Origin: a virus
Virus record (IMG/VR): IMGVR_UViG_3300006192_000737
Coordinates: 1-32,234 of that record
Reading direction: 5' to 3' (one strand)
Length of the DNA stretch: 32,234 bases
Shown in pieces: positions 24,115-32,234 of the stretch. Below the pieces are notes generated by a model that was given only the letters and a program-made list of their open reading frames with translations, did no database searches and was not told the origin of the DNA. Both the position numbers and the translations under genes were made by a program. How positions within the stretch are numbered: the first letter of the stretch is position 1; each line of letters starts with the position of its first letter.

Positions 24115-24473
24115 ATGATCCTCCACCCAAATATCGCAACAAACACACCTATCGCCGACGCAACGATAAGAGATGTCCCAAGTATCCGGTCGATGACCTG
24201 GGGTGCCCCCTGATCATCAACTTCATCCACCAAAACTGGCAGCGTCATGCTCTGGATACGTGCTGCCATCACTTCGACAGCTGTAATGATGGAGTCAGGA
24301 TGGCATCGAGCCGTATCCCAATCGATCATTGTCGAGGTACGTGCGCCTGCCAGCGGCGTCGTAACACGGCCGACCACTTCCACCCCGACACCATTGATCT
24401 GCACCGAGATCTGGCGCTGTGGCATCGTCGCGGCATCAGCCATGACCGCCGCGCGGATCAGTTGCGTGATCAT
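24111..24473 (-). CDS. Tail-anchored membrane protein of unknown function
   Basis: 120 residues. The first 90 residues are soluble and look beta-rich (QISVQINGVGVEVVGRVTTPL, then MTLPVLVDEVDDQGAPQV). The last 24 are one membrane segment (LGTSLIVASAIGVFVAIFGWRII). Start and stop overlap neighbours by 4 bp. The usual Gam (host nuclease inhibitor) slot lies around here in Mu, but this protein shows no Gam pattern. No family recognised. Confidence 0.58.
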   Translation of the reverse strand: MITQLIRAAVMADAATMPQRQISVQINGVGVEVVGRVTTPLAGARTSTMIDWDTARCHPDSIITAVEVMAARIQSMTLPVLVDEVDDQGAPQVIDRILGTSLIVASAIGVFVAIFGWRII

Positions 24474-25432
24474 GCAGCACCCCCACGCATCGAGAGCTGC
24501 GACCAGGCCGCCTGCAAATCGTCCAGCGCCAGCGCCCGGCGTTCGCCCAACGCGATCATTTTTGCCAGTTCGACCGCAAAGGTAGCACCACGCAAACCGC
24601 CGGGGATTGTCGCGATCCGCACGATAAAGGCTACCAGGGCTTCGTCGTGGATGTCCCAGGCCGCTGCCAGAGCGATGGCATCGGCTTTGAGCGGCACGGG
24701 CCGGATCAGGCGCATCGACAGGCGGCTATAGAGCTGCGCGAACGCATCATCGCGGCCGCCACCTTCAATCCGCTTGAGCACCTTGATGTTCCCAAAGAAC
24801 GCAATGCCAAGATCGGCCAGATCGTTCCACGACCTGATTTCCTCGATTGCCTTCTCGCTCAAGTGTTGGGCTTCGTCGATGATCAGCAGCGGCATATGCA
24901 TGTTGCGCACCATCTCGCAAATCCGGAAGCTCAGCGCCTGGGGCGTGCCCTTCGGATTGCGTTCGCCAAGTGCGCGCAGCACCGCGATCTGCATGTTGTT
25001 CACACCAGCCGACGACGGCGTCATCGTCGCGCGGAACACGTTGGGATAGCAGGCGGTATAGTAGGTGCTGGTCTCAGTCTTGCTGCAACCAGCACCCGTC
25101 GCGGCGACCACCACGCGGCCCCGCTTTGCCCAGTGCAGCAACTGGGTCAGTTCCTTTGTCGTCTGGGTTTCATAGAACGGCGGAAGTTCCGGCAGTTCCA
25201 CAGCCATGCTGGCTTGCTGGTTGAGCTGCTGGCGATAACGGAACACCGCATCGGCCAGCTTCTTCTCATCACCAGCATAGCCCTTTGTGCTGCCGAACTG
25301 GGTCAGCGTTCCGGCAGGGATACCCACGCGCTTGGAGAGTTCTGACCAGGTGAAACCGGTCGACACGCGATGCTCCATCAACCAGGAACGCATCTCCTCG
25401 ATATCGATGGGCTGTGCGCTGGGGTCATTCAT
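24470..25432 (-). CDS. MuB-like AAA ATPase, target DNA activator
   Basis: 320 residues. An N-terminal HTH (about residues 28-50, WSELSKRVGIPAGTLTQFGS) precedes the AAA core. Walker A is ATGAGCSKTET (111-121), where the usual Gly before Lys is Ser117; Walker B is PLLIIDEAQHL (181-191). The C-terminal part matches MuB relatives that end in helical bundles. In Mu this ATPase binds target DNA, gives immunity and activates the transposase. It follows the transposase after a 76-bp gap with two hairpins, rather than an overlap. Ribosome binding site AGGAG with 9-nt spacer. Confidence 0.9.
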   Translation of the reverse strand: MNDPSAQPIDIEEMRSWLMEHRVSTGFTWSELSKRVGIPAGTLTQFGSTKGYAGDEKKLADAVFRYRQQLNQQASMAVELPELPPFYETQTTKELTQLLHWAKRGRVVVAATGAGCSKTETSTYYTACYPNVFRATMTPSSAGVNNMQIAVLRALGERNPKGTPQALSFRICEMVRNMHMPLLIIDEAQHLSEKAIEEIRSWNDLADLGIAFFGNIKVLKRIEGGGRDDAFAQLYSRLSMRLIRPVPLKADAIALAAAWDIHDEALVAFIVRIATIPGGLRGATFAVELAKMIALGERRALALDDLQAAWSQLSMRGGAA

Positions 25433-25508: not shown

Positions 25509-27482
25509 TCAATCCACCACTCTCAGATGACTGAGCGCAGCGAATACCTTGGCCTCGTGAGCTGGCGGTTCGGGGGCCGCTTGCACAGCCTTGATCGCAG
25601 CAACGCTGCCGCGATGGCGCACTGGGCGCACCACTTGCAGCTCGGGCATGATTGGTTCGGGGGATGCGGCCTGCACTGCTGCCACCTGGGCAGCGGTCAA
25701 CAGGTCTTCAGCTTCGGCTGCATCCCGGATTTTCTTGCGATACTCCGCTACGCGCTTGGCCGTAGCCTTGGCCTCGGCAGCATCCAGAAATTGCACGTCT
25801 CCCAGCAGTTGCGCCGTGCACAGATAGTGATCACCCTGGTCGTAGAGATGCACATCGCACAGCAGGTTATCTGGGTCGAACCGCACCGTTACGCGCTGGC
25901 CATGAAGCCGGCCGCATTCGGGTGACCAGTACCGGTTGCCGAACAATCGCACTTCGCCAGTGCGAGCATCGATCCGCCTTTGCTCGCCCGCCAGCAGTGC
26001 CTTGCGCATATGCTCGGGCGTCGCCTTGCCGATCGGCGCCACGGCATAGGATTCGGCGAACACATCGTCGAAGCTGCGGCCTCGCGCCGTTTCGGTGCGG
26101 CGTCCGACCTTGGCGTTGTGGTCTGCGATCCCCTTGTCAACCTGGGCCACGAACTCGCCCCATTCCACAGCCCGGCTGCCATAGTTTTCCGGCTTCGCCA
26201 TCGGGTTGTTACCCACATAGGCCCCGGCAAACGCCGGATGCTTGGCGATCCTGTCGCACATGTCGCGAAAGGCTCGCTCGATCGGCTTGGACTGGCCTCG
26301 ATAAGGTGTCGCCCAGTGTATTTGGATGCCCAGGCCGACCAATAGGCCGGTTGGGTCCTCTTCGCGCACCTTGAACCGGAAACGGGTGTTGGCTCCTCCC
26401 GTGATCCACTTGCTGGCAAAGGCCCGCCCATTGTCGAACACGCATTCCTTGGGAATGCCCCAGGTCTGAAACAGGTCGGCAAAGCACAGGCGTGTCTGCA
26501 TGGCCGATTCCTCGCCGCCTATGCGCCAGGCCAATACCTTGCGGCTGTAGATATCCTGGATCGTCACCATGATCGGGCGGATGATCCGGCCATCGCCGGT
26601 CTTCACGAACACGTCGAACTTATGGCCGTCGATGTTGACGACTTCCATTGCGTGCAGGTGGGCCACGGTGCGGCGCTGGGCCGGAATCGAGCGACGGAGG
26701 GCCTCGCTGCCGTGGCGTCGGAACAGCAGCACGCGCGGATCGATCTCGCGCTCGGCCTTGCGGCGCAGCGACCGTTCGGACGGCATCCGCAGCCCCCGTT
26801 CCTTGGCAATCGCAGCTGTCCGGTCATAGCAGCTGGTCATGGTCGGGGCTTCCAGCCGCAGGTAATCGCTCAGGAAGATGCGCCACAAATCTTCGTCGAT
26901 ATCTGCCTCGCGCCCACCGCCCTTGCGCTGCGGCGCCAGCGCAGGAAGCCGGTGATGTGGGGCCACGCCCTCTACCAGCTTGAGCCAGTTCCAGATCGTC
27001 TGGGCGCTCTTGCGGTGCTCATGTGCCAGAGCTGTGACCGCCAGCGTGCGTGACAGGCCAGATTGAAGCAGCGTATCGAACTGGGCGATGACCCGCGCGC
27101 GTGCTTCGGCCTCGGCCTTCACCGCGCCACTCTGGAGGTCATACCAGCGCCAGCTGGCAGCCATCTGATCCTCGGCTGTGACCAGCACGGTTTCGCCGAT
27201 CTTGCGACCCAGCTCGATCCGCGCTGGGCCGGGCAACAGCGACACATGGAATTCCAGGCCGCCGCCGCGCGCCTCACGCGGCCGGGCCAGTGGATTGCCC
27301 ATTTTGTCATGCTGGATCAGCCAGCGCGATGCGCGGGCATGGCGGTTCATGGCGCGTTTGTCGTGCGGCACGCCGGGTAGTTGCAGCTGCGCCAGCTCGG
27401 CCGCCGTGAACCACTCGCGCGGCTCGGCCTGATCGGCGAGCGTCGCGGCGGTTTCTGGTGTGGTGCGTGCCGGTTGCATCAC
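25509..27482 (-). CDS. MuA-like DDE transposase
   Basis: 657 residues. EWFTAAELAQLQLPGVPHDKRAMNRHARASRW (23-54) is the Mu-type N-terminal DNA-binding domain, followed by a second HTH region (about 130-180, FDTLLQSGLSRTLAVTALAHEH...). The catalytic core has D285 (VVNIDGHKFD), D350 (CVFDNGRAF) and E402 (KPIERAFRD); spacing 65 and 52 fits MuA (D269, D336, E392). The C-terminus is helical and would contact the ATPase partner and host remodeller. It catalyses cutting at phage ends and strand transfer for integration and replication. It begins at GTG 27482 (or ATG 27479), overlapping the previous stop. Confidence 0.95.
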   Translation of the reverse strand: MMQPARTTPETAATLADQAEPREWFTAAELAQLQLPGVPHDKRAMNRHARASRWLIQHDKMGNPLARPREARGGGLEFHVSLLPGPARIELGRKIGETVLVTAEDQMAASWRWYDLQSGAVKAEAEARARVIAQFDTLLQSGLSRTLAVTALAHEHRKSAQTIWNWLKLVEGVAPHHRLPALAPQRKGGGREADIDEDLWRIFLSDYLRLEAPTMTSCYDRTAAIAKERGLRMPSERSLRRKAEREIDPRVLLFRRHGSEALRRSIPAQRRTVAHLHAMEVVNIDGHKFDVFVKTGDGRIIRPIMVTIQDIYSRKVLAWRIGGEESAMQTRLCFADLFQTWGIPKECVFDNGRAFASKWITGGANTRFRFKVREEDPTGLLVGLGIQIHWATPYRGQSKPIERAFRDMCDRIAKHPAFAGAYVGNNPMAKPENYGSRAVEWGEFVAQVDKGIADHNAKVGRRTETARGRSFDDVFAESYAVAPIGKATPEHMRKALLAGEQRRIDARTGEVRLFGNRYWSPECGRLHGQRVTVRFDPDNLLCDVHLYDQGDHYLCTAQLLGDVQFLDAAEAKATAKRVAEYRKKIRDAAEAEDLLTAAQVAAVQAASPEPIMPELQVVRPVRHRGSVAAIKAVQAAPEPPAHEAKVFAALSHLRVVD

Positions 27483-28540: not shown

Positions 28541-28779
28541 CAGCAGCCCGTCCGCTTTTCTTCCGCGGAGAAACGCTCCTTCATGATCGCATCGCGAAGC
28601 GCGCGGCTTCCCGCTTCCATGGCGCGCCGATACGTATCATCCGGTCCCGTACCGTGGCACAGGGTCGAAATCCGGCGGCGAACGTATTCAACCGTCAGTT
28701 TCATCATTTTAGCGATTTGAAGGGCTTGATATCCCTGTTCATGCAGATCGATGATCTGCTGCTCACGCGTTGTGATCAT
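28540..28779 (-). CDS. HTH protein, sigma-70 region 4 / LuxR-like
   Basis: 79 residues, starting MITTREQQIIDLHEQGYQALQIAKMMKLTVEYVRRRISTL, a compact HTH with the TxREQQII start of LuxR/sigma region 4 domains. The remaining half is helical and charged. Start overlaps the methyltransferase stop by one base. It may regulate early genes. Confidence 0.68.
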   Translation of the reverse strand: MITTREQQIIDLHEQGYQALQIAKMMKLTVEYVRRRISTLCHGTGPDDTYRRAMEAGSRALRDAIMKERFSAEEKRTGC

Positions 28780-29477
28780 CACGCTACTCCTTCGATAGGC
28801 GCGATATGGCCAGCGCTCAGCGCGGGCAGCCAGATCGTGCGGGTGAAGCCGGAAGCGGTCGGACGCGTCTTGTCCCAAACCACCCAGCAGTAATCGATCA
28901 TACCGCCGCGATAGGCGCGACCGGCCATGGCCTCGATCATGTCTCCCGGCGGCATCGATGGGCGCTCGCACAGGTGCAGAACCGCCAATGGCGGATAATC
29001 GACCATGAACAGGCGAAACCGGCCCTTGCTGGCCAGCCACTTGTTGGGCACCAGCATGCAAACGCGTCGTGTTGCCAGCCACAGCGCCTGCCGGGCAAAG
29101 GCCTCGGCAATGCCTTTGATGTAGCTGTACGGCGGGTTGCACACGATTGAGCAGGGCCGCTGCATCGGCGTGCGCTCGCGCTCAAGGAAATCTGCGCTGA
29201 AGAACTGGGGCCGCAGATAATCCGCCATGTGCTCGAAATCAGCCCAGGCCACGCGGTTGACGATGTCCGACAGCCACACGTCGAAGCCCGCCTCGACGAA
29301 TGGCCCCGCGACATGGCCGAAGCCTGCGGCCGGGTCCCAGATGATTTCTCCGGTATCCAGTTCCTGCGCGAAACCGCCCAGCGCCTGGAACAGTTGCCAA
29401 GTCTCCCAGCCCTGCTCGACATACCAGTCGTAGGGATGGCGCTTGGAGTGGCGGCCAGATGAAATTTCACCGCGCAT
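28779..29477 (-). CDS. DNA adenine methyltransferase-like protein
   Basis: 232 residues, starting MRGEISSGRHSKRHPYDWYV; the reading to 29561 is longer but upstream codons are shadow of the neighbour. SAM-binding motif I is WDPAAGFGHV (47-56) and catalytic motif IV is CNPPYSY (113-119), the order and form of N6-adenine methyltransferases with NPPY. No separate target-recognition domain is evident, so it is short. It probably modifies phage DNA against restriction, the same need that Mu meets with the unrelated Mom. No restriction enzyme is nearby, so it looks like an orphan. Confidence 0.8.
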   Translation of the reverse strand: MRGEISSGRHSKRHPYDWYVEQGWETWQLFQALGGFAQELDTGEIIWDPAAGFGHVAGPFVEAGFDVWLSDIVNRVAWADFEHMADYLRPQFFSADFLERERTPMQRPCSIVCNPPYSYIKGIAEAFARQALWLATRRVCMLVPNKWLASKGRFRLFMVDYPPLAVLHLCERPSMPPGDMIEAMAGRAYRGGMIDYCWVVWDKTRPTASGFTRTIWLPALSAGHIAPIEGVA

Positions 29478-29724
29478 CAGCGCTCTCCTGGCTGATGGGC
29501 GCGCGCGCCTCTTGGCGCAATTTCTCAATGGCCGGATCGAACCGCTTCTTGAGGCGATCATGCAACATCACCAGGCGCTGCCGTAACACCCGCACTTCCA
29601 GGCGCTGCGCCTTCGGAAGGCAGGGGAACATTTCGTCAATCCGTCTGATCTGAATGCCCAGCGCATTGATGACACTTTGCGTTTCAAACAGATCGAGCGT
29701 GGCGAAGGTGCTACCGCGCTTCAT
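29467..29724 (-). CDS. Small helical protein of unknown function
   Basis: 85 residues, starting MKRGSTFATLDLFETQSVINAL; a longer reading to 29796 is rejected because it runs back through the ParB-like frame. Predicted helical with coiled-coil character (RLEVRVLRQRLVMLHDRLKKRFDPAIEKLRQEA). Overlaps the ParB-like gene by 14 bp and the methyltransferase by 11 bp. No family recognised. Confidence 0.58.
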   Translation of the reverse strand: MKRGSTFATLDLFETQSVINALGIQIRRIDEMFPCLPKAQRLEVRVLRQRLVMLHDRLKKRFDPAIEKLRQEARAPISQESADAR

Positions 29725-30835
29725 TGTGTGCACTCCCTTCAATGCCGAACAAGGCGCTCTGAACCACGCCGCAGGCATCGTGCAGGGTGTCGTCATCGAT
29801 CTCGTTCTCGCCCGTCAGGAGCGAAGTGAGCACATGGAAAGCCGTCTTGAGCGCGGGCGTCGCCGGTCCAGCCGCTTCCTCGCCCAGATCGCGGCTAAGG
29901 ATGTCGCGCAGTTGCCGCTTCACTTCGGCATTCTTCAGCCCCTGCACGATCTGCGGCAGATACCGCTTCTGCTGAGGAGCCGTCAGACGACCGAGGTTAC
30001 CGACAACGGCCGACAGCGCTTTTTCGTCTTTCGTTGGTGCTCGCCCGGCAGGCACATCCACGCCTGCCAGGATGCGCGCATCGTCGGCGCCGATCTCGGG
30101 ATCTGCCAACAGCGCTTCGATCACGCGGCGGCGATCTGCTTCCTCGCGCACTTGGGCAATTGCACGCAGTTGCGCTGCGTTTTCGCCCACCACAGGGTGT
30201 CGGCTCAATGGCTCGATCAGATCGCCAAACGGCTCGATAATCAGGCGGAAAAGTTCGAGGTCACGATGGATCGAGCGACGCGACATGCCGAGAGCTTCAC
30301 CCACCGACTCTTCCCAGCCGTATACGTGTGCCACGGTGGCACACGTATCATCGACTTCCTCAGTCAGCGCTTGATCAGGGCGCATCTGGTGGGCTTTGAC
30401 CTTCTCCCAGCGCGCCTTGATGGCCAGCTTTTGCTGGGCGAGGCTGCCATGTTCACGCGCGATACGCTGTTGCGCTGCTTGAACCAGCGCAGCCGTGAAT
30501 TTCGCGCGCTCGATCGGTCCGAGAGGGCGACGGTGCAGGTTCTCCGACGCTTCCAGATCCGCAAGGTCTTCGGGCTTTCCAGAAACCTCGACCGCAAACA
30601 CCTGGATACCTTCCAGTCGGGCACCGACCAAGCGATGCATACCGGTCACAAGGCGCCATGGCTGCGCCTTGCTTTTGGACTGCGCCACCACCTTGATCGG
30701 GTCACGCTGACCATCCACGGCCATAAGCCGGCCGATCGCGGCGGCCTTGTCCTCATGCAAAAAGCCGATGCGCTTCCCTTCATCGACGGTGTTGGGATCA
30801 AGGGCAAACAGCTGGGCGTTCGAAAGGATGCTCAT
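29711..30835 (-). CDS. ParB/Spo0J-like protein
   Basis: 374 residues. The N-terminal ParB domain (about 12-110) includes GQRDPIKVV (42-50), WRLVTGMHRLVGARLEG (60-76) matching the G-x-HR CTP-binding box, and ASENLHRRPLGPIERA (96-111). The HTH follows at about 174-195 (EESVGEALGMSRRSIHRDLEL). The C-terminal part is helical (RDILSRDLGEEAAG...). No ParA partner is seen. Roles for lone ParB-like proteins in phages include DNA binding, gene control or segregation; I cannot tell which. The gene itself contains a 27-bp palindrome at 30322-30348. It starts with ATGA overlap. Confidence 0.84.
   Translation of the reverse strand: MSILSNAQLFALDPNTVDEGKRIGFLHEDKAAAIGRLMAVDGQRDPIKVVAQSKSKAQPWRLVTGMHRLVGARLEGIQVFAVEVSGKPEDLADLEASENLHRRPLGPIERAKFTAALVQAAQQRIAREHGSLAQQKLAIKARWEKVKAHQMRPDQALTEEVDDTCATVAHVYGWEESVGEALGMSRRSIHRDLELFRLIIEPFGDLIEPLSRHPVVGENAAQLRAIAQVREEADRRRVIEALLADPEIGADDARILAGVDVPAGRAPTKDEKALSAVVGNLGRLTAPQQKRYLPQIVQGLKNAEVKRQLRDILSRDLGEEAAGPATPALKTAFHVLTSLLTGENEIDDDTLHDACGVVQSALFGIEGSAHNEAR
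30322..30348. promoter_or_regulatory. 27-bp palindrome inside parB-like gene, candidate parS or operator
   Basis: Perfect 13-bp arms ATACGTGTGCCAC and GTGGCACACGTAT with a single G between. It lies in codons 163-171, just before the HTH region. A perfect dyad of this length is not expected from coding need alone. Its ligand could be the ParB-like protein itself; this is inference. Confidence 0.6.
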
Positions 30836-31484: not shown

Positions 31485-31523
31485 ATCTGCAATATTGCTA
31501 ATTGCAATAGCAATATTGCAGAT
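31485..31523. promoter_or_regulatory. Operator pair: 16-bp perfect inverted repeat between divergent regulators
   Basis: ATCTGCAATATTGCTA at 31485-31500 and its exact reverse complement at 31508-31523, separated by ATTGCAA. Each arm holds the 10-bp palindrome GCAATATTGC (31489-31498, 31510-31519); centres are 21 bp apart, two helical turns, so two dimers could bind the same face. The promoters for both regulator genes must overlap it. Confidence 0.82.
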
Positions 31524-31556: not shown

Positions 31557-32234
31557 ATGAATGGCCTTGAACAAGACCAACACCTTCTTAAGGCTCTCAG
31601 TGTGTTTGCGGGGCTCCCGCCCTCGCGTCTCGCGTCTGAGGCAGGGCTCGCAGCAACAACCATTCTGCGGCCTTTCAATGGCACTGCGACCTCGCGCTTA
31701 AGTGCCCCCACTATCGAAAAGCTGAAGGCTCAATTCCCGGATTTTCCCGGTTGGGGAGATTTTACCTCACCATCGAATCTACCAGCGGATGGCGCAAAGC
31801 GCAGGATTACCGCTGATGGAATGGTCGATGTCCGTCAGATCGATTTGCGCTTTGGCCTTGGCGGTGTCATCATGGATAGCGAGATCGTGGAAGATCAGGC
31901 AGAAACCATGTCGTTTCCTATCGCATGGTTGCGGATGATAACCACGAGCCCAACAGATATGCTCTATTGGGCCCGCGGGATGGGCAACTCCATGGAACCT
32001 GCAATAGGTGATGGTGATGTCATTCTGATTGATCGGTCGCAGTTCGATGTAGGTTTTGGTGACCTCTATTGGGCAATATCATATGGCCAAATCGGTATGA
32101 TAAAGAGATTGCGGCCCATGCCTGATGGCGGAGTAAAGATACTCTCAGACAATCCTGCAGTGACCCCAGAAACAGCATATGACGGTGAGCTGCATGTGTT
32201 CGGTAGGGTCGTTGCGGTGGTGAAACGCCTATGA
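31557..32234 (+). CDS. Immunity repressor, HTH plus S24 peptidase-like domain
   Basis: 225 residues and the only plus-strand gene. HTH near residues 23-55 (RLASEAGLAATTILRPF...). C-terminal S24/LexA-like domain: S145 in MGNSMEPAIGDGD and K183 in IGMIKRL are the expected catalytic pair. No Ala-Gly or Cys-Gly is visible in the linker region (about 70-110), so self-cleavage may be lost. It should bind the operators next to it and keep the early operon off. The ATG at 31557 has GAGG only one base upstream, so translation may be weak or near leaderless. It is visibly more AT-rich than the other genes. Confidence 0.88.
   Translation: MNGLEQDQHLLKALSVFAGLPPSRLASEAGLAATTILRPFNGTATSRLSAPTIEKLKAQFPDFPGWGDFTSPSNLPADGAKRRITADGMVDVRQIDLRFGLGGVIMDSEIVEDQAETMSFPIAWLRMITTSPTDMLYWARGMGNSMEPAIGDGDVILIDRSQFDVGFGDLYWAISYGQIGMIKRLRPMPDGGVKILSDNPAVTPETAYDGELHVFGRVVAVVKRL

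Follow-up and report, generated by a model that had tools for sequence, protein, structure and literature searches.

A palindrome within the parB-like gene of a Mu-type phage as the very probable cognate site of the gene product

We describe a 27-bp perfect palindrome that lies inside a parB-like gene of a Mu-type phage. Very probably it serves the ParB-like product of that gene as its cognate, parS-like site. Comparison of related sequences brings out the dyad itself, its compensatory conservation, its fixed place in the gene, a code that links helix residues to arm bases, and the joint exchange of helix and site. The explanation that we favour as a whole, and judge likely, is that the palindrome is a specific binding site situated inside the gene of its own reader, beside the codons of the reading helix.

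Results

The palindrome and its gene

The window, i.e., the whole stretch of viral DNA that was analysed (32,234 bases), holds the following features.

24470–25432, minus strand: MuB-type transposition ATPase (PF09077, phrog_296)
25509–27482, minus strand: Mu-type transposase A (PF02914, E 2.1e-54; phrog_310)
29711–30835, minus strand: ParB-like protein, 374 aa (phrog_3264, ParB-like partition protein, E 9.6e-18)
30236–30316, minus strand: HTH codons, residues 174–200, with helices 174–182 and 186–200 predicted from the structure model (residues 174–179 at pLDDT < 50)
30263–30277, minus strand: codons of R187 (turn Gly+4), H190 (Gly+7) and R191 (Gly+8), which covary with the site
30322–30348, no strand assigned: 27-bp perfect palindrome, proposed cognate (parS-like) site, central base 30335
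31557–32234, plus strand: CI-like S24 repressor (PF00717, phrog_4)

The MuA- and MuB-type domains PF02914, PF09039, PF09299 and PF09077 identify a Mu-type transposable phage, and the other genes on the IMG/VR contig include portal, terminase and tail genes. The early region also contains a DNA methyltransferase-like gene (28779–29561, minus strand; phrog_799, E 4.9e-37). Between the CI-like repressor (31557, plus strand) and the early genes there is a 16-bp perfect inverted repeat with a 7-base loop (31485–31523), which is probably the operator of that repressor.

The palindrome reads ATACGTGTGCCAC-G-GTGGCACACGTAT, its 13-bp arms being 100% complementary around one central base. It is located inside ORF 29711–30835 (minus strand), just ahead of the HTH codons, and codes for D163 (from the second base) to Y172 (to the first base) in the stretch ...DTCATVAHVY.... 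The initial annotation had reported a 27-bp perfect palindrome in the parB-like gene, and we confirmed it at 30322–30348 as described. Order-2 Markov simulations of the window never (0/60) produced perfect 13-bp arms around a 1-base loop, and when loops of 0–7 were allowed the same simulations gave a mean of 0.033 perfect-arm palindromes each; the palindrome is real, and chance is excluded as its source. Synonymous codon shuffles of the window gene alone regained 13/13 pairing in 5/400 cases, a weak test because the amino-acid string is itself palindrome-compatible. A single gene by itself is no proof, and the decisive support for the palindrome is the comparison across relatives. The sequence differs from the canonical parS consensus; the palindrome is parS-like and not a canonical parS.

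The ParB-like protein of the window matched no Pfam family at E ≤ 0.1, and hmmsearch returned Spo0J (1vz0, E 0.00057). Its AlphaFold model (pLDDT 75.9, pTM 0.56) has a ParB/Noc/KorB-like fold in a different domain arrangement (rmsd 6 to 12.5, as quoted for two-domain matches). Foldseek matched ParB 7bnk with E 6.4e-7 and a probability of 1.00, at a TMq of 0.25 and an rmsd of 11.7 over both domains. VIA matches to ParB, Noc and KorB had Z scores of 9–11, KorB 8qa8_F being the best (Z 11.0, rmsd 11.5, 172 aligned) and tied with ParB 7bnk. For the N-domain alone, VIA gave sulfiredoxin and serine kinase rows near 9.7, and the model points to an N-terminal ParB/sulfiredoxin-like domain. Residues 163–172, encoded by the dyad, are modelled as the end of a linker helix, and residues 186–200 as the recognition helix. 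In the window's group, A1, all 51 genes (51/51) contain both CTP-motif-like strings (GxxR-type and ENxxR); in group A4 (see below) ENxxR was found in 0/79 genes and a looser form in 72/79, so that CTP use may not be general and cannot be assumed for A4.

Conservation among relatives of the window gene

Scanning viral contigs and genome contigs for relatives of the window protein, we read 65 loci containing 51 distinct genes; the 21 loci from named genomes all belong to Sphingomonadales. A tblastn search of the window protein against named phages and plasmids gave no match, and relatives in named phages were reached only via two loci, L164 (a ParB-methyltransferase relative) and L171. The dyad lies at the same codons in all 51 genes, with a score of at least 8 in 46/51 and of 6.5 to 7 in five. 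The ends of the site, AT[AG]C...G[CT]AT, are nearly constant across A1 while the inner arms vary, and the peptide tracks the DNA, reading D-T-C-x-x-x-A-H-V-Y in some A1 genes and D-A-C-x-x-x-A-Q-A-Y in others.

Covariation was counted over the sites of 49 relatives (35 distinct sites), leaving out L024 and L041, whose dyads are shifted or longer. Across these 49 sites, 96.0% of arm cells were paired compared with 74.4% after shuffling, and changes on both sides were seen in 9/12 base pairs. The covariation score was 0.517 versus 0.144 for shuffled sites, with 0/500 shuffles as high and slid controls reaching at most 0.133. Rather than being lost where the amino acids are kept, the dyad persists through amino-acid changes. 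Judged from these sites, the arms stay complementary through compensatory changes and it is the amino acids that follow the DNA.

Dyads in other ParB-like genes

When viral contigs were scanned for exact matches to two classes of site, 16 and 14 loci came up, of which 29/30 are in ParB-like genes (26 assigned by tblastn, L164 and L165 by ORF, and L172 by translation), L150 being the exception. At three of those loci the ParB-like proteins are quite different, and the dyad is again just ahead of the HTH. Our gene set comprised 247 distinct genes in five groups, namely A1 (window type, 51), A3 (RcapMu type, 22), A4 (Pelagibaca/Thiobacimonas type, 79), A5 (POA1180 type, 83) and AM (ParB-methyltransferase, 12), and the dyad sequences differ completely between groups. 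Strong dyads (score of at least 10) were found in 30/51 A1 genes (59%) versus 3/102 synonymous shuffles (2.9%), in 13/22 A3 genes (59%) versus 0/44 (0%), in 43/79 A4 genes (54%) versus 5/158 (3.2%), in 48/83 A5 genes (58%) versus 1/166 (0.6%), and in 9/12 AM genes (75%) versus 2/24 (8.3%). Their place is fixed: over the five groups, 142/143 strong dyads are centred 8–45 codons before the HTH turn glycine, and a dyad scoring at least 8 lies inside that stretch in 214/247 genes versus 108/1,235 shuffles.

Named phages with the dyad include RcapMu, POA1180, RR1-B, StopSmel, Aussie, vB_PeaS-P1 and vB_ThpS-P1, and Staphylococcus phages EW and IMEP5 also carry it. The named relatives RcWaterboi (7.0), Rhodovulum vB_RhkS_P1 (6.0) and Staphylococcus phage 85 have no dyad scoring 8 or more. 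In 11/11 annotated Mu-like records the ParB-like gene is positioned 0–2 genes upstream of transposase A. A further arrangement occurs at loci L173–L185, mostly from metagenome series 3300006674, where a ParB domain and, behind it, a DNA methyltransferase-like part share one reading frame; site and recognition helix differ strongly among these proteins, which are about 95% identical elsewhere.

As a control we read 30 loci from a generic ParB search (phrog_3264) of one class, setting aside L101 and L124 as unreadable (no ORF was found in L124). The 21 genes of canonical layout, with the HTH directly after ENxxR, had no such palindrome, their best dyads scoring 5.5 to 8.5. In 7/7 genes with a long linker before the HTH, it was this linker that contained the highest-scoring dyad (8.5 to 11), and three Gordonia phage proteins with a short linker had no dyad before the HTH. 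As a sampler of the subfamily phrog_3264 was rejected, since it matches 368/385 genomes of the class and hence ParB in general.

Helix residues and arm bases

We then compared arm bases, counted from the palindrome centre, with residues counted from the HTH turn glycine, using 219 dyads with a score of at least 7.5 and an odd centre; the remaining 28/247 genes were unused (24 below threshold, 4 even-centred). Outside the dyad some 200 protein columns are variable; the two that covaried best with the site, in A4 and in A5 separately, were Gly+7 (with base 6) and Gly+8 (with base 3). In A1 the columns Gly+4, Gly+8 and Gly+7 ranked 2, 3 and 4, the top column being A138, which is no helix residue, and in A3 (n = 21) mutual information did not single out helix columns.

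The resulting code is as follows. Arg or Lys at Gly+7 goes with G at base 6, Glu or Gln with C, and Phe, Tyr or His with T; because His at Gly+7 occurs only in A1, its pairing with T is drawn from that group. Arg at Gly+8 goes with C at base 3, and Lys, Leu, Asn, Tyr or His with A. Arg at Gly+4 was accompanied by G at base 5 in 158/158 sites with agreeing arms. The window fits the code, with R187 and G at d5, H190 and T at d6, and R191 and C at d3; in the model, the bases that the helix would read are 30330/30340 (d5), 30329/30341 (d6) and 30332/30338 (d3).

Leaving out one group at a time, the Gly+7 rule gave 365/366 covered arm bases correctly (32/32, 32/32, 142/142, 139/140 and 20/20 for the held-out groups in turn), and label permutations reached this in 0, 0, 0, 0 and 3 of 1,000; 30 A1 genes (29 with His and one with Trp at Gly+7) were unpredictable from other groups. 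For Gly+8, the held-out counts were 88/90 in A1, 137/140 in A4 and 126/126 in A5, with 0 of 1,000 permutations as good in each, while A3 (20/22) and AM (10/10) carry one label only and are uninformative. Loci outside the training set, 15 of 17 of which were scorable, gave 26/28, 26/30 and 26/26 arm bases in agreement, the misses falling in L103, L102 and L404, of which L404 has an uncertain HTH register. These loci were in part not blind, because L097–L100, L102, L103, L142 and L171 had already been seen when the rule was fixed, and a site pattern had led to L171 and L393; the six previously unseen loci (L398, L400–L404) gave 10/10 for Gly+7 and 10/12 for Gly+8. Even-centred dyads, compared by eye, fit in part, Pseudomonas phiAH14a and Vibrio eugene 12A10 breaking one rule each.

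The initial annotation had proposed a parS-like site of the ParB-like protein, and this proposal is supported by the code, in which the encoded HTH predicts arm bases across sites that are unrelated to each other. It suggests that the window protein, too, has an HTH that reads a cognate palindrome. PMC7383237 reports that G170, K171, S172 and N178 of C. crescentus ParB contact parS, and that the difference between ParB and Noc is set by R173, T179, A184 and G201. By residue numbering, in a register that is our own reading of the numbers, Gly+8 would correspond to the N178 position, and in our code, too, Asn at Gly+8 goes with A.

Joint change of helix and site

Site and HTH would together form one cassette of about 50 codons. 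Among pairs of proteins at least 90% identical outside this cassette, pairs that are mutually non-independent, the same Gly+7 residue came with the same base 6 in 63/63 and a different residue with a different base in 47/48; for Gly+8 and base 3 the corresponding counts were 61/61 and 44/50. In one such pair, L176 and L177, the proteins are 97% identical outside the cassette, with Arg versus His at Gly+8 and C versus A at base 3. Helices of the relatives include, for example, the IHRD, IHND, RTIRR and RTIQR types. Proteins about 90% identical elsewhere thus differ in palindrome and helix jointly. We examined identity along 114 switched pairs, in which the helix residues differ and the rest is at least 85% identical. 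It was 0.31 to 0.58 over codons −30 to −6, except for 0.84 just before the turn, and 0.48 to 0.58 over codons 0 to +9, with flanks mostly at 0.84 to 0.97, whereas 76 same-specificity pairs kept an identity of 0.70 to 0.99 throughout. Such dips are the trace that exchange of a site-plus-HTH cassette would leave; a gradual joint change of helix and site is a possible alternative. From these comparisons, reader and target appear to travel as one swappable unit.

Palindromes outside ParB-like genes

No second copy of the palindrome, allowing up to 3 mismatches, was found in the 32,234-base record, and in the records of relatives matches were almost confined to the dyad of the record's own ParB-like gene. 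The class-1 pattern with up to 3 mismatches was present in 35/51 records holding the window's relatives, 15 of the 51 being whole genomes; compared by eye, the matches were dyads of own ParB-like genes bar three, namely two in an array in genome G040 and one 3-mismatch match in G035. The class-2 pattern was found in 1/296 order-mates, in a ParB-like gene close to L060.

The array (L096 4114–4752; G040 contig C100, about 61613–62251) belongs to the same genome as L050, Sphingobium ummariense, and comprises a run of at least 11 distinct 27-bp palindromes. It sits in a phage remnant outside any ParB-like gene, and several of its units match dyad types found within the ParB-like genes of different phages. 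The array is possibly a sponge or a multi-address array; blastn of it against plasmids and phages gave no match. At L023 (region 1788–1880; also in L047) there are three adjacent palindromes; an in-frame insertion of about 20 codons, placed ahead of the HTH, contains two of them.

About 1–1.5 kb upstream of parB, an unrelated Ant/Rha-like gene carries a strong palindrome (11.5–14) at codons 52–61 in 6/6 distinct genes, five of which were noticed because of the palindrome. The loci are L064 and L065 (on the contigs of L011 and L012), L008 1344–2036, L043 986–1681, L081 (L024 contig) and L080 (L023 contig). The gene matches phrog_63 with E 6.7e-9 for L011 and more weakly for the others; the arms differ between genes, and 1/30 synonymous shuffles reached a score of 10. 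The self-carried palindrome may not be limited to ParB-like genes.

Discussion

Physical binding of the palindrome by the ParB-like protein seems to us highly probable, given how the code and the joint changes agree with it. In the proposed mechanism, the two HTHs of a ParB-like dimer would dock on the two half-sites, with R187 reading G at base 5, H190 reading T at base 6, and R191 reading C at base 3 (G on the other strand). The protein would load at the site in its own gene as a CTP-dependent clamp, like ParB at parS; this step is reasonably probable, because the protein is of the ParB type and both CTP-motif strings occur in the window's group. A clamp on its own gene would damp transcription along the early operon towards the transposition genes, and since the site sits in that operon the protein probably restrains it. 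That autoregulation of the early operon is the main role can be put forward tentatively, whereas self-labelling of phage DNA as the role is unlikely. As site and HTH would share one cassette, recombination or drift that altered the specificity would alter the address too.

Among other readings, the one that fares best is a ParABS-like partition centromere, at which the ParB-like protein would load for segregation or condensation of phage DNA. The ParB-type fold agrees with it, as does the presence of parS-359 inside B. subtilis parB (PMC4442127). However, there is one site per record as a rule, the phage is of a transposing, integrated type, and no ParA was named among the 28 window ORFs scanned with PHROGs, which are part of the ORFs of a record that may be incomplete. 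The lack of a named ParA makes partition less likely, and we consider it rather improbable; a plasmid-like partition role is left without support.

The dyad could alternatively act in mRNA, as a hairpin controlling translation, decay or termination of the early transcript, instead of being a DNA site. Perfect inverted repeats in a transcript can fold, and over all groups the coding-strand arm mismatches were GT in 45 cases versus AC in 31. Taken alone, the excess is compatible with a hairpin; it is driven by A4 (30 versus 10), and without A4 the counts are GT 15 versus AC 21. A hairpin would also leave unexplained why Gly+4, Gly+7 and Gly+8 predict arm bases across groups, and the array of similar palindromes outside any ParB-like gene speaks against it as well, making an RNA role very unlikely.

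Rickettsia and REP-type palindromes are elements that insert in frame into genes. The adjacent dyads and in-frame insertion at L023, and the row of at least 11 different palindromes in the phage remnant of the L050 genome, would suit a mobile or repetitive palindromic element of this sort. We rejected a mobile repeat on the rarity of matches outside ParB-like genes, only three for class 1 in 51 records, the 1/296 for class 2 being within such a gene. Moreover, place and complementarity are kept although the arm sequences vary, and these sequences are predicted by the HTH, which leaves this reading little credence. That the peptide is kept for folding, with the palindrome as a codon by-product, is scarcely credible, for although shuffles of the window gene do at times restore full pairing, the peptide is unconserved and follows the DNA (T..V and A..A versions), the both-side changes already contradict a by-product, and group-wide shuffles seldom yield strong dyads.

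The reading that we prefer, a cognate site inside the gene of its reader, has partial counterparts in known systems. KorB of plasmid RK2 is a CTP-dependent ParB-family repressor, and KorB operators lie in promoters. The structure model suggests a likeness to KorB in fold, and operon repression by a ParB-family protein is the model favoured here; in contrast to KorB operators, the phage site lies inside the coding sequence of the regulator. In B. subtilis, parS-359 is a palindromic ParB site within parB (spo0J), the gene of its own ParB (PMC4442127), and thus likewise a ParB-type site inside its own reader's gene. It differs in being one of a conserved parS type read by a chromosomal ParB, whereas the phages have lineage-specific sites that are tied to their own helix and placed right before the HTH codons. 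ParB/parS and Noc/NBS, according to PMC7383237, also have the HTH of a ParB-fold dimer on a palindrome with few specificity residues, and there one specificity switch (the four positions named above) was dissected by experiment. The phages, by comparison, offer many natural specificities with the target in the same gene and a code at Gly+7, Gly+8 and Gly+4.

The same kind of gene is found in the alphaproteobacterial Mu-like phages RcapMu, RR1-B, vB_ThpS-P1, vB_PeaS-P1 and POA1180. ParB homologues were noted in such phages and a part in integration was suggested for them in PMC5488378, whose accessible part mentions no site. Within the literature searched, outside of which lay preprints and most subscription journals, we met no account of a site within its own reader's gene that is coupled to the HTH of that gene and exchanged along with it. 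A parS within parB is already known; a lineage-specific, helix-matched site beside the HTH was not found in print and appears to be new here.

It is tempting to speculate, at a confidence somewhat short of probable, that many ParB-like genes of mobile elements, and perhaps others such as the Ant/Rha-like genes, are self-addressed cassettes of about 50 codons that contain both helix and palindrome and are swapped whole. Each phage would then mark its own DNA alone, specificity would be under diversifying selection, comparable with self/non-self among related prophages, and the natural pairs would amount to a recognition code for HTHs of the ParB type. As a rule, genomes are a poor source on protein-DNA specificity, since one has to guess which site a regulator binds. 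In the present genes the target comes with the reader, and hundreds of natural reader-target pairs can therefore be read directly. From them emerges a three-residue code for the ParB-type HTH that is open to testing, and they offer a concrete, function-first way into the ParB-like proteins that transposable phages encode. The arrangement would provide a way for a gene to switch specificity without losing its site, and it suggests a diversification of DNA addresses among phages of the same kind.
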